A DNA stretch of 64,000 nucleotides from Kineococcus xinjiangensis (GTDB taxonomy: Bacteria > Actinomycetota > Actinomycetes > Actinomycetales > Kineococcaceae), in contig NZ_PTJD01000009.1 of NCBI RefSeq assembly GCF_002934625.1, positions 124,001-188,000 on the forward strand, in the 5' to 3' direction. A model generated the notes under the pieces. That model saw only the letters and a program-made list of their open reading frames with translations. It searched no databases and was not told where the DNA came from. This document shows positions 46,194 through 54,473 of the stretch, in pieces; position 1 is the first letter of the stretch; the number at the start of each line of letters is the position of its first letter. The position numbers and the translations under genes were made by a program.

Positions 46194-46239
46194 CAGACAG
46201 GCCCGCAGACGCACGGACGTGCGTCTGCGGGCCTGTCTG
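46194..46239. terminator. Very strong stem-loop after chemoreceptor gene
   Basis: 21-bp perfect inverted repeat around a four-base loop (46215-46218), 13 bases past the stop of the minus-strand receptor gene. It could also stop transcription from MarR. Confidence 0.88.
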
Positions 46240-46251
46240 CGGGGTGGCCGG

Positions 46252-47889
46252 TCAGGGGCAGGTGGTCTGCTCGGGCAGGCGGAAGCGGGCCACGACGGAC
46301 TGCAGCTCGGCGGCCATGTGGGCCAGTTCGGCGGTGGCCTGCTGGGCCTGGCCGACGCCCTCGGTGGTGACGCGGGCGGCGTCGGCGACACCGCCGATGC
46401 GGGAGGCGATCTGGTCCGCGCCGGTGGCGACGTCGCCCACGTTGCGGTTCATCTCCGAGGTGGTGGCGGTCTGCTCCTCCACCGCCGCGGCGATGGTGAC
46501 CTGGTAGGCGTTGATGCGCTCGATGGTGTCGGTGATGCCGGCGATGGCGGCGACCGCACCTGTGGTGTCGGTCTGGATGGCCGCGACGCGGCGGGAGATG
46601 TCCTCCGTGGCGCGGGCGGTCTGCTGGGCCAGTTCCTTGACCTCGCCGGCCACCACGGCGAAGCCCTTGCCGGCCTCCCCGGCGCGGGCGGCCTCGATGG
46701 TGGCGTTGAGGGCGAGCAGGTTGGTCTGCTCCGCGATGGCGGTGATGGCCTTGACGACCTCGCTGATCTCGGCGGAGGACTTGCCGAGGCGGACGATGGT
46801 GGCGTTGGTGACCTGCGCCTCGGACACCGCGGAGGCGGCGACCTCGGCGGCCTGCCCGGCGTTGGAGGCGATCTCCACGATGGAGGTGCCCATCTCCTCG
46901 CTGCCGGCGGCCACGGTCTGCACGTTGGCCGAGATCTGCCCGGCCGCTGCGGCCACCGCGTCGGCCTGGGTGGAGGCGACGTCGGCGGAGGCGGCGATCT
47001 GGGTGGAGGTGCTGCTCAGCTCCTCCGACGCCGCGGCCAGCGCGGTGGAGGAGGTGGCGATGGCCTGCACCGCGGCACCGACGCCGCGCTGGGCGGTGCG
47101 CAGGGCCTGCGCCATCACGCCGAGCTCGCAGGTGGTGTGGACGTCGACGCTGCGGGTCAGGTCGCCCTCGGCCATGCCCTCCACCGCGTAGGCGACCCGC
47201 CGCAGCCCGATGATGATCATCTTGGCGATGAGGACACCGAGGCCGACGGCCAGGCCGAGTCCGGCGACGAGAACGGTGATCATGGTGGTGCGGGCGGAGG
47301 CGTAGGCCTCCTTCCCGGCGGCCACGGTGGCGGCGGCCTCGGCCTTCTCGACCTGCTCGACGCGGTCGAGGGCGTCGGCCATCTCGGAGATGACGGGCTG
47401 GGCGACCTCGTCGCGCACCCGCTGGAAGCCGGCCAGGTCGTTGGCGCGGCTGAGCGGGATCAGCTGCTCGTCCCGGATGGCCCGGAACTGCGCCAGGGCC
47501 TCCTCGAAGGTCTCCCAGTCCGCGCGCTGGCCCTTCAGGCCGAGGGCCTCGTAGGCGGCGGCCGCGGCGTCGAGGTCGGTGTCGGTCTCCTCCATCTTCT
47601 GCTCGTACTCGGCCATCGTGGCCTCGTCCAGGGAGGAGGCGTGGTAGCCGATGAGCATCCGCGACTTGATCTGCTCCTGGTGCACCCGACCGCGCTCGAT
47701 GAGACCGGTGACGTTGTCGTCGTAGAGGGTTCCCATGCCGGCGTTCGTCGTGCTCAGCGACTTCAGTCCCACCATCGCCACCAGGCCCGCCACGACAGCC
47801 AGGAGTGCGATGACGCCGAGGATGCGGGTCGCGACGCCGCGGTTGGTCAGCCAGCGGATCACCGCTCGTTGCTCGAGCCACCGGGTCAT
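46252..47889 (-). CDS. Methyl-accepting chemotaxis protein
   Basis: A 545-residue receptor: TM1 (about 24-44, [20 protein letters not shown]), an external four-helix-bundle ligand domain (starting [15 protein letters not shown]), TM2 (about 201-222, [19 protein letters not shown]), HAMP, and a signalling domain with tip [23 protein letters not shown]. The last residues are RLPEQTTCP, so no CheR tether. ATG at 47889 follows GGAG; a GTG at 47904 with GGAGGAC upstream is an equally good start. Its FliA-like promoter is one arm of the palindrome at 47996-48086. It resembles the receptor at 30732 in the signalling half. Confidence 0.94.
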
Positions 47890-47995: not shown

Positions 47996-48024
47996 CCATC
48001 GGCAACGGCGGGTTGCCGCCTGAG
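47996..48024 (-). promoter_or_regulatory. FliA-like promoter for the chemoreceptor
   Basis: Read on the minus strand: CTCA, 17 bases, GCCGATGG. The expected start of transcription is about 85-100 bases before the receptor's start codon. Confidence 0.6.
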
Positions 48025-48084
48025 CGGACGGGTTCCTGCATTCGTGCAGGAATTCCGCTCAGGAGGGCAACCCCTGTTGCCGAT
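47998..48084. repeat. Nested 87-bp inverted repeat between divergent genes
   Basis: Four nested arm pairs around a TTCG centre: ATCGGCAAC/GTTGCCGAT, GGTTGCC/GGCAACC, CCTGAGCGGA/TCCGCTCAGG and TTCCTGCA/TGCAGGAA. The arms carry the -35 and -10 elements of two divergent FliA-like promoters, explaining the symmetry. It could also form a cruciform or bind a regulator. Confidence 0.85.
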
Positions 48085-48086
48085 AG
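48058..48086 (+). promoter_or_regulatory. FliA-like promoter for the HTH gene
   Basis: CTCA, 17 bases, GCCGATAG. The -10 ends seven bases before the GTG at 48093, so the transcript may be leaderless. Confidence 0.6.
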
Positions 48087-48092
48087 AGGTGT

Positions 48093-48521
48093 GTGCTCGC
48101 TTCCTCGACGGTGCTGCGGCCCTCCACGCTCGAGCTGGTGCCGGGAGCCGCGGACGCCGCGACCGGCGCCGGCGCTCCTGCCGCCGCGAGCACCGCCACA
48201 GCGCTGACGCACCTGCGGCGGCACCTGCAGGAGGGCATCGACGCCCTCGCGGAGGCCCTCGCCCGGACCGAGGCGCTGTGCGGGCAGCTCGACGGCGACG
48301 CCGGCCCCGACGACGCCCCGGCCCTGGAACAGGTCCCGGTCCTCTCCTGCCGCGTCGGGGAGGCCGTGACCCGGTTGAGCGAGGCCGACAGCCGCTGGCG
48401 CCGCGCGGAGGTCCGCGCCCTGCACGAGCGGGGCCTGAGCACCCGCGCCATCGCCAAGCTGCTCGGCGTCAGCCACCAGCGCATCAGCGTCCTGCTCAAG
48501 GACACCGCCGCGTCTGCGTGA
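48093..48521 (+). CDS. Small HTH protein divergent from the chemoreceptor
   Basis: A 142-residue protein. A variable N-terminus and a helical segment (RRHLQEGIDALAEALARTEA) precede a C-terminal helix-turn-helix (RALHERGLSTRAIAKLLGVS, then HQRISVLLKD) similar to sigma-region-4/HTH_7-type DNA-binding motifs. It shares a FliA-like promoter palindrome with the receptor and may regulate motility genes; that is inferred. The GTG at 48093 is seven bases after the predicted -10 element. Confidence 0.72.
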   Translation: MLASSTVLRPSTLELVPGAADAATGAGAPAAASTATALTHLRRHLQEGIDALAEALARTEALCGQLDGDAGPDDAPALEQVPVLSCRVGEAVTRLSEADSRWRRAEVRALHERGLSTRAIAKLLGVSHQRISVLLKDTAASA

Positions 48522-49447: not shown

Positions 49448-49683
49448 CAAGCTCGACTCACCGTCTCACCGCTCGGCATCGGAGGCCCGGTGTCGCGACG
49501 GCCTCCCTGACTCCCTGTACCTCGGCAGGAAGCCGCCCCGGCTGGAGGTCCGGCCTCCTCACGGTGCCCGGTGCCGCGCGGGACGCCTCCCCGTGCCTCT
49601 CCCCGCGACGGGCTCAAGGAGCGGCCCGGACGTGCCGATACGTCGTCCGGGGGCGTCGTGCCCCCGTCGAGGGAGGGCGGAAC

Positions 49684-51435
49684 GTGCAGGTCCAGAGCCC
49701 GCGGCCACCGGCCGGGGAGCGCACCCGCAGGCGGCTCCTCCCCCAGGGGACGCCGCTGCCCGACGACGTCTGGCTGGCGCGGCACCGCGCGTTCCTCGTC
49801 TCCGCCTGGGTCGCCTGCGCGACGGTCCTCGCCTGGGCCGCGGCCACGCGGGGGATGTGGCACGGCCTCGCCGACGCCGTCCCGGTCGCCCTCGCCGCGC
49901 TGCTGGCCACCCTCGCCGGGCGCCGCAGCCGCCAGCTCCGCCGGGAGATCGCCTCCTCCGCCGTGATGCTGGCGCTCATGACGGCCGCCGCGGTCGCCGT
50001 CCACCTCTCCGGTGGCCTCATCGAGGCGCACTTCCTGTTCTTCATCGCCGTCGGGGCGGCCGCCGCCTACCAGACGTGGGCGCCGTTCCTCACGGCCATC
50101 GGCTTCGTCGTCCTCCACCACGGCGTGATGGGCACGCTCGCCGGGCAGGCGATCTTCAACCACCCCGGCGCGCAGGAGCGGCCCTGGGTGTGGGCGCTCG
50201 TCCACGCCGGGCTGCTGGCCGTCGCCGCGGCCGTCGGCATCGCCTCCTGGCGCGCCGACGAGGTGGTGCGCGCCCGGCTGGCGGACCTCGCCGCCCGCTC
50301 CCGGCTGATCGTGAGCACCGTCGAGGACGGCATCGTGGCCGTCGACCGCACCGGGCGGGTGGTCGACGCCAACCCGGCGGCCGTGCGCCTGCTCGCGCGG
50401 GGCGGCAGCCCTGTCGGGGTACCGCTGGAGGACCTGCTGCCCGGGGTGTGCGACGGGCAGCAGATGTGCGCGCTGGTGCGCGGCGAGCGCCCGGTGGCGC
50501 CGCACCGGACGTACGTGCCGGCGGGCGCCGACGCCGACGCCGTGCCGGTGTCGGTGACCGTCGTGCCCGTGCAGACCGACGACGCCGTCTGCGCCGTGGT
50601 GACGCTGCGGGACCTGTCCACCGCGGCGCGGGCCGCCACCGCCGAACGCGCCCTCATCGACCTCGCCGAGCGGGAGCGGGTCCAGCGCGAGGACGTCGCC
50701 GCGCTGCTGGCCGCGGTGCGCCCCCCGGCGCTGCACGTCGAGGGGCTGGACATCGCCGTCGCCTACGAGCCGGCCGCCAGCGCACCGGCCGGCGGGGACC
50801 TCTACGACTGGGTGGCGCTGCCGTCGGGGGAGGTGCTGCTCGTCGTGGTCGACGCGATGGGACGCGGCACCGCCGCCACCCGCGAGGCGCTCGCCGTCAC
50901 CTCCACCGTCCGCACCCTGGCCGTCGCCGGCTGCCCGCTGGAGGAGCTGGTCTCCCAGGCCGGCGCCGCGCTGGAGGTCACCCACCCCGACCTGCTCGCC
51001 ACGCTGCTCGTCGCGCTGCTCGACCCCGCCACGGGCCGAGTCCGCCTCGCCGGCGGTGGGCACCCGCCGGCGCTCGTGGTGACCGGCCGCGGGGCGCGCG
51101 AGGTCAGCGCGGAGGGCCTCGGCGTGGGCTACCCCGACCCCGGCAGCTTCGCCGTGCGGGAGGTCGTGCTGGCGGAGGGCGACAGCCTCGTGCTCTACAC
51201 CGACGGCCTCATCGAGGGCACGCGCGACCTGGCCGAGGGCCTGCGCGAGCTGGCCGCCACCGCCGCGGGCCTGGCGGGACGGCCCCCGGCCGAGTTCGCG
51301 CGGCGGCTGCTCACCGACGTCACCACCTGCGCCCTCGACGACGACGACTGCCTGGCCATCGTCGTCCGGCGCTCGGCCACCGCTCCCCGCGCGGCCGGTG
51401 CGCCCGCCGCGACGGCGTCCTCCCCCGTCCGGTAG
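49684..51435 (+). CDS. Membrane PAS-PP2C (SpoIIE-type) phosphatase
   Basis: A 583-residue signalling protein. The N-terminal membrane module has about six helices and the histidine pattern HLSGGLIEAHFLFFIAVGAA, then YQTWAPFLTAIGFVVLHHG, shared with the MCP at 34493. A PAS domain follows (RLIVSTVEDGIVAVDRTGRV, DANPAAVRLLA). A SpoIIE/PP2C phosphatase ends the protein (PAGGDLYDWVALP, VVDAMGRGTAATREA, LVLYTDGLIEGTRDL, DDDCLAIVV), with metal-binding aspartates present. Likely dephosphorylates an anti-sigma antagonist in response to a membrane signal. GTG at 49684 has GGAGGGCGG upstream. Confidence 0.92.
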   Translation: MQVQSPRPPAGERTRRRLLPQGTPLPDDVWLARHRAFLVSAWVACATVLAWAAATRGMWHGLADAVPVALAALLATLAGRRSRQLRREIASSAVMLALMTAAAVAVHLSGGLIEAHFLFFIAVGAAAAYQTWAPFLTAIGFVVLHHGVMGTLAGQAIFNHPGAQERPWVWALVHAGLLAVAAAVGIASWRADEVVRARLADLAARSRLIVSTVEDGIVAVDRTGRVVDANPAAVRLLARGGSPVGVPLEDLLPGVCDGQQMCALVRGERPVAPHRTYVPAGADADAVPVSVTVVPVQTDDAVCAVVTLRDLSTAARAATAERALIDLAERERVQREDVAALLAAVRPPALHVEGLDIAVAYEPAASAPAGGDLYDWVALPSGEVLLVVVDAMGRGTAATREALAVTSTVRTLAVAGCPLEELVSQAGAALEVTHPDLLATLLVALLDPATGRVRLAGGGHPPALVVTGRGAREVSAEGLGVGYPDPGSFAVREVVLAEGDSLVLYTDGLIEGTRDLAEGLRELAATAAGLAGRPPAEFARRLLTDVTTCALDDDDCLAIVVRRSATAPRAAGAPAATASSPVR

Positions 51436-54426: not shown

Positions 54427-54473
54427 CGCCGCGGAGCCCCGCTCCCCTGGGAGGGGAGCGGGGCTCCGCGGCG
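54427..54473. terminator. Long bidirectional stem-loop
   Basis: 21-bp perfect stem with a five-base loop, ending one base from the stop of the convergent minus-strand gene. Confidence 0.88.

Follow-up and report, generated by a model that had tools for sequence, protein, structure and literature searches.

Divergent FliA-type promoters with putative operator dyads in the spacer that separates a chemoreceptor gene from a small HTH gene in Kineococcus xinjiangensis

Divergent regions in which a regulator is transcribed away from its target, with the operator of the autorepressor laid over the promoters, represent the LysR- or TetR-style layout, and a regulator site that overlaps the -10 or the -35 element usually signals repression. 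For flagellar promoters of the sigma-28 type the consensus is quoted as TAAA / GCCGATAA in PMC8325347. The E. coli gene aer has a sigma-28 promoter with CRP centred at -49.5 (PMC2859248), and PMC2587704 reports FlgM to be absent from Kineococcus radiotolerans and from the other flagellated Actinobacteria sequenced by then. Autoregulated regions of the divergent kind are already known, and so are FliA promoters; in the literature surveyed on FliA/sigma-28 promoters and operators we did not recognise their combination, the share of leaderless starts in the regulon or an operator of the HTH family described below.

The locus studied here lies in a window of 64,000 nucleotides, which is the whole stretch of DNA analysed, and occupies the spacer between a chemoreceptor (MCP) gene and the gene of a small HTH protein (Table 1). 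The reading that we favour, and hold to be probable, is that this spacer carries divergent FliA/WhiG-type promoters, each overlapping an operator dyad of the HTH family, and that the arrangement would provide FliA-dependent negative feedback. The promoter motifs with their regulon, the start-codon offset, the recurrence of the dyad at HTH homologues and the MCP/HTH neighbourhood are the sequence-based parts of this reading.

Table 1. Features of the chemoreceptor/HTH spacer and the flanking genes, in positions of the window
Feature	Coordinates	Strand	Basis
Chemoreceptor, MCP: 4HB/TarH sensor and MCPsignal	46252..47889	-	Pfam and ORF list
MCP promoter, FliA-type, CTCA-N17-GCCGAT	47998..48024	-	motif; shared with other MCP loci
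Dyad GGCAAC-N5-GTTGCC, spacer and -10 of MCP promoter, putative operator	48001..48017		pattern search
Central perfect inverted repeat TTCCTGCA-TTCG-TGCAGGAA	48033..48052		fold and sequence
HTH-gene promoter, FliA-type, CTCA-N17-GCCGAT	48058..48084	+	motif
Dyad GGCAAC-N4-GTTGCC, spacer and -10 of HTH promoter, putative autoregulatory operator	48066..48081		pattern search; homologues
Small HTH protein gene, 142 aa	48093..48521	+	GTG 8 nt past GCCGAT (predicted leaderless); HTH_23

The palindrome between the two genes

The initial annotation had described the spacer as a nested palindrome of four arms, and the folding analysis agrees with it in both respects. The inverted repeat extends from 47998 to 48084, with arms of 31 nt each (47998-48028 and 48054-48084) that are 81% complementary. 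When gaps are allowed the stem is nearly unbroken down to its central repeat, and it is built by four blocks (ATCGGCAAC/GTTGCCGAT, GGGTTGCC/GGCAACCC, CCTGAGCGGA/TCCGCTCAGG and TTCCTGCA/TGCAGGAA). None of 200 shuffles folded as well, either as DNA or as each of the two RNA strands, and the z-scores of the fold were -9.31 for DNA and -9.29 and -8.46 for the RNA strands. The fold energy is, however, not exceptional, at least three other places of the window (near 54.4, 46.1 and 30.5 kb) being equal or stronger, and it is its location between divergent promoters that distinguishes the palindrome.

Of the 111-nt stretches of the window that were folded, the one with 54427-54473 proved the strongest (-102.5 kcal/mol); there, perfect inverted arms of 22 bp enclose a 3-nt loop, and a second strong hairpin follows. 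Another perfect inverted repeat, likewise of 22 bp but around a 2-nt loop, lies directly beyond the MCP stop codon (46194-46239) and is probably a terminator.

A long hairpin of a strength like that of the other strong hairpins in the window might also be a mobile or repeated palindrome of the REP/MITE kind, or a bidirectional terminator with promoter look-alikes in it. Such an origin is very improbable. REP and MITE elements are multi-copy, and the palindrome occurs once in the 4.6 Mb genome, which speaks against a mobile palindrome, the outcome that the initial annotation had proposed to look for by searching the genome for the same nested element; the runner-up DNA match spans 35 nt (E 0.07) and is itself another FliA-type site. 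Moreover, both motifs stand at promoter distance and are members of a genome-wide set, and, as the flanking genes are divergent, no transcript needs terminating at the palindrome. The highly stable RNA folds of both strands would in turn suit a riboswitch or an attenuator working within a longer transcript, an explanation to which we give hardly any credence: a scan of the palindrome against Rfam gave zero families at gathering score, and, with both predicted starts falling beyond the hairpin, neither transcript would include it. The Rfam model mir-618, which came up with a low E value, was dropped as an identity of the palindrome because it scored 27.1 bits where the cut-off is 96.

FliA-type promoters and predicted leaderless starts

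CTCA-N17-GCCGAT is present in both halves of the palindrome, as the initial annotation had stated, and its proposal of a divergent FliA-type pair gains support from the genome-wide distribution of the motif, from the genes downstream of it and from other MCP loci. The symmetry had been taken to make one element drive both genes; instead, there are two separate promoters placed back to back. CTCA-N15..19-GCCGAT occurs at 69 sites of the genome, its reversed control at 31. The sites distribute over spacers of 15, 16, 17, 18 and 19 nt as 2, 18, 35, 4 and 10, figures given after the subtraction of four entries from two other genomes, and N16 and N17 together make 53. The canonical TAAA -35 was found in neither half, both of which have CTCAGG; at the 53 sites CTCAGG is present 11 times, as compared with 22 for CTCAAG.

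An exact CTCA-N15..18-GCCGAT precedes the gene on the sense strand at 13 of 30 MCP loci, the window's included, the 30 being taken from 38 matches that 12 genomes of the family gave. The nearest MCP paralogue (L141, G000:C4 161113-162099, minus strand; 76%) lacks a palindrome, and its one FliA-type site, GTCA-N17-GTCGAT, is degenerate. The MCP of the window scores 2e-29 for MCPsignal and 5.1e-16 for 4HB_MCP_1; its start is placed at ATG 47889, which would give a leader of about 100 nt, with GTG 47970 as the alternative.

A FliA/WhiG sigma gene is encoded at C1:225372-226052, with 282.5 bits against the NCBIfam cut-off of 189.6, and passes the WhiG equivalog cut-off too; a second FliA-like sigma gene (L052, G000:C16 561-2010) stays slightly under that cut-off of 189.6 with 184.6 bits. 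A FlgN gene with its own FliA-type site lies near this second sigma gene.

The genome has 52 candidate ORFs downstream of the sites, 39 of which were picked by hand for a Pfam scan. Flagellar, chemotaxis, c-di-GMP or sensory domains were found in 18 of the 39, which include seven GGDEF, one EAL and three MCP proteins (the window's among them), FlbD, FlgN, a flagellar-type ATPase, three PAS/GAF/HisKA proteins and a response regulator. Other families appeared in 13, e.g. aconitase, helicase, phosphomutase and methyltransferase, which probably reflect chance sites or other functions, and the remaining ORFs (8/39) had none. The c-di-GMP enzymes look like a major output of the regulon. Two neighbouring FliA-type sites (L018 and L002, G000:C1 88433-90154) each stand before a HisKA_7TM-GGDEF gene of the same design, and a third gene of that design is located at C2 (L028). 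In the window itself there is a third FliA-type site, CTCAAG..TGCCGAT at 49613-49639 on the plus strand, preceding a gene for a PAS protein with a SpoIIE-type phosphatase (ORF 49564-51435; the nearest coding-like GTG downstream is at 49684).

Among 396 genomes of the order, three contain a divergent pair of this pattern, the reversed control giving none, and the pairs of G005 and G106 fold far more weakly than the one described here (-27.4 and -30.9 vs -69.5 kcal/mol). A broader survey of contigs returned 34 stretches from many phyla, many of them possibly due to chance, and was given no weight.

The prediction of a leaderless HTH transcript is strengthened by the start codons of the genome. 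At 9 of the 53 N16/N17 sites, the HTH gene included, an ATG or GTG lies 8-9 nt past GCCGAT, where about 1.2 would be expected (Poisson tail 5.6e-6, for an offset selected post hoc after inspection of the list; coding-like ORFs were those of at least 100 codons with a GC3 of at least 0.88), and none of the other offsets between 0 and 150 exceeds three starts. The layout is shared by the HTH homologue of G005, whose GTG is located 8 nt past the GCCGAG of a CTCA-N17 site. The distance of seven bases originally given between promoter and start codon needs correction, because a promoter ending at 48086 leaves six bases before the GTG at 48093. A gene for a HATPase-domain protein (L168, G000:C9 93156, plus strand) has its ATG 9 nt past GCCGAT and is possibly a further case of a leaderless start from a FliA promoter, though the -35 is poor.

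The GGCAAC/GTTGCC dyads and the HTH family

The HTH protein matches HTH_23 (PF13384) with 25.4 bits, the Pfam gathering cut-off being 24.6, and scans of the Pfam/NCBIfam type gave no specific named family. Its predicted model is all-helical, with a mean pLDDT of 74.3 and the C-terminal part modelled best; a fold search with this model yielded no match at E<=0.001, and one search for related loci returned no relatives of the protein. The family is sparse, being present in at least 4 of 198 genomes of the order and at least 13 of 394 of the class, lower bounds obtained by scoring the best candidates of each genome. In G005 a whole homologue is transcribed divergently from the gene of an MCPsignal protein, which resembles the window's MCP in the signalling domain only. 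In G006 (L161, G006:C5) a C-terminal piece of the HTH protein has as its divergent neighbour an MCP with 46% identity to that of the window over 340 aa, and the dyad is absent between the two; dyad and HTH protein may have been lost together. The divergent partner varies, since the HTH paralogue of the window's genome has the HATPase-domain gene L168 in that place.

The initial annotation overlooked what lies behind the nesting: GGCAAC-N4/5-GTTGCC dyads, one in each promoter spacer, account for much of it. Two palindromic operators in opposite promoters are by themselves enough to produce part of the stem, the CGGA and TTCCTGCA parts not being accounted for in this way. The central TTCCTGCA dyad was considered as a third regulator site and rejected, its core not being enriched genome-wide (15 vs 16 in the control).

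GGCAAC-N2..7-GTTGCC is found at two places in the genome, both in the palindrome, with one for the reversed control. The core GCAAC/GTTGC with N4/5 is found at eight places against four for its control, and these are both arms of the palindrome, the HTH paralogue, C9:101454, C13:24711 and three places with no recognised link. At C9:101454 a PAS gene has the dyad within its FliA-type site, in the same register as in the palindrome, and at C13:24711 it is placed over the -35 of the FliA-type site of a GGDEF gene. Among the 53 FliA sites three contain 11-12 of the 12 dyad letters and one contains 10, two of these four being the palindrome's own arms; shuffling of flanks and spacers gave 0.01 and 0.245, respectively. 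In G005 a CTCA-N17-GCCGAC site that faces the MCP encloses the dyad. Each of the 11 other family genomes has fewer dyads than sites of the reversed control, and only here is the dyad the commoner of the two. As the dyad is not enriched across the family, the case for an operator rests on its place and not on its number.

Each homologue region comprised the 400 nt that precede the conserved part of the encoded protein (n=16, the window's own excluded). The core GCAAC-N4-GTTGC is present in 5 of the 16 and ranks first of 1024 half-sites, with N4/5 allowed in the ranking, the next half-site reaching three regions. In all five the spacing is 4, and spacings of 0-3 and 5-15 gave none. Two of the five, the G005 homologue and the window genome's own paralogue with its slightly altered dyad, had prompted the hypothesis; among the 14 regions fetched afterwards three have the exact core, where about 0.12 would be expected at one site per 47 kb, the flanking DNA of the homologue loci (~47 kb) containing one core site. 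Only 4 of 1414 stretches of 300 nt from other loci reach at least 11 of the 12 dyad letters, and none reaches 12. The full 12-letter dyad is present at L179 and L181, the 16-mer of the latter being identical to that of the window, L176 has two exact cores, and at L160 there are two sites that each deviate by one mismatch. The exact core is absent from 11 of the 16 regions, including four of one genus and two of another, and from L049, a weak homologue outside the 16. At L169, L160, L179 and L181 an open frame crosses the dyad, with possible starts on either side, and owing to these uncertain starts "upstream" takes the conserved protein part as its reference. The dyad recurs, then, upstream of HTH homologues above background, and GCAAC-N4-GTTGC is most likely, as judged from its sequence context, the operator by which the HTH family regulates itself. 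That the receptor is controlled as well is less secure, because the spacing on the MCP side is 5 as against 4 at all exact homologue sites.

The two halves of the palindrome are also alike beyond the consensus positions, their spacers giving an alignment score of 8.0, the third-highest among 595 promoter pairs. Past the -10 further similarity of the inverted repeat is non-significant (fraction 0.0755), so that the repeat is limited to the promoters. The shared non-consensus positions and the arrest of the symmetry near -10 fit an inverted duplication of one promoter-operator unit, and the palindrome plausibly originated in this manner as two promoter-plus-operator units in opposite orientation. 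The same features would be left by a plain divergent FliA pair whose palindrome is the relic of such a duplication and holds no regulator site. We think this unlikely, since GCAAC-N4-GTTGC is also found upstream of HTH homologues in genomes of other families (L176, L179, L181) with no adjoining CTCA-type FliA site seen, and duplication alone is therefore insufficient for the dyads.

A second objection concerns what acts on the dyads. We infer both the binding partner and the sign of regulation, and in G005 the dyad is situated well upstream of the HTH promoter, inside the opposite one; the dyads could accordingly belong to a different regulator of HTH-family genes, or the HTH protein could be an activator. 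The recurrence of the site with HTH genes across four families points away from the former and the overlap of all four FliA-linked sites of the genome with -10 or -35 away from the latter, and we regard either version as decidedly unlikely. Autoregulation by the HTH protein remains the preferred reading.

Proposed working and relation to known systems

In the mechanism that we propose, binding, dimerisation, repression rather than activation, the positions of the transcription starts and the duplication are what we infer. Polymerase with the motility sigma factor would transcribe both the MCP and the HTH gene, and the HTH mRNA would begin at or beside its GTG, leaderless. A dimer of the HTH protein would then sit on the N4 dyad over the -10 and close its own promoter. 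On the receptor side binding to the N5 dyad may be weaker or lacking altogether, and the receptor promoter would possibly be shut off. The HTH regulator, as its sites suggest, probably restrains its own expression and perhaps that of the chemoreceptor.

A wider reading, which we offer as doubtful, is that the HTH protein represents an undescribed family of promoter-specific brakes on actinobacterial motility-sigma promoters, made leaderless from a FliA promoter and occluding the -10 or -35 of its targets, which would be the HTH gene itself, the chemoreceptor, the PAS sensor and the GGDEF gene. If true, it would supply a local, DNA-based restraint in a group from other species of which the absence of FlgM has been reported, and hence one route to restrain FliA promoters without FlgM. 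For control by the motility sigma factor in an actinobacterium with flagellar genes, the analysis offers a concrete regulon of motif, leaderless starts and genes; for an unnamed HTH family it offers a concrete putative operator, and it suggests how such a site can be folded into promoters of the sigma-28 type.

The locus shares with described FliA/WhiG promoters the GCCGAT -10, the fixed spacing to a short -35, the motility and sensing genes and a sigma gene in the genome. It differs in its -35, CTCA(A/G)G instead of the TAAA quoted in PMC8325347, in the frequent c-di-GMP enzymes among the scanned downstream genes and in the leaderless appearance of some sites. As in the LysR/TetR-style layout, the regulator is divergent from its target and dyads lie over core promoter elements, but here the two promoters are of FliA type and the regulator, a small HTH protein, matched no specific named family. 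With E. coli aer (PMC2859248) it has in common a chemotaxis-type gene under sigma-28 plus a second regulator; there the regulator is an upstream activator, whereas here the sites over the -10 suggest repression. Control by the anti-sigma factor FlgM would likewise curb FliA-dependent transcription; FlgM, however, binds the sigma factor, whereas the locus described here would employ a DNA-binding brake on a few promoters.
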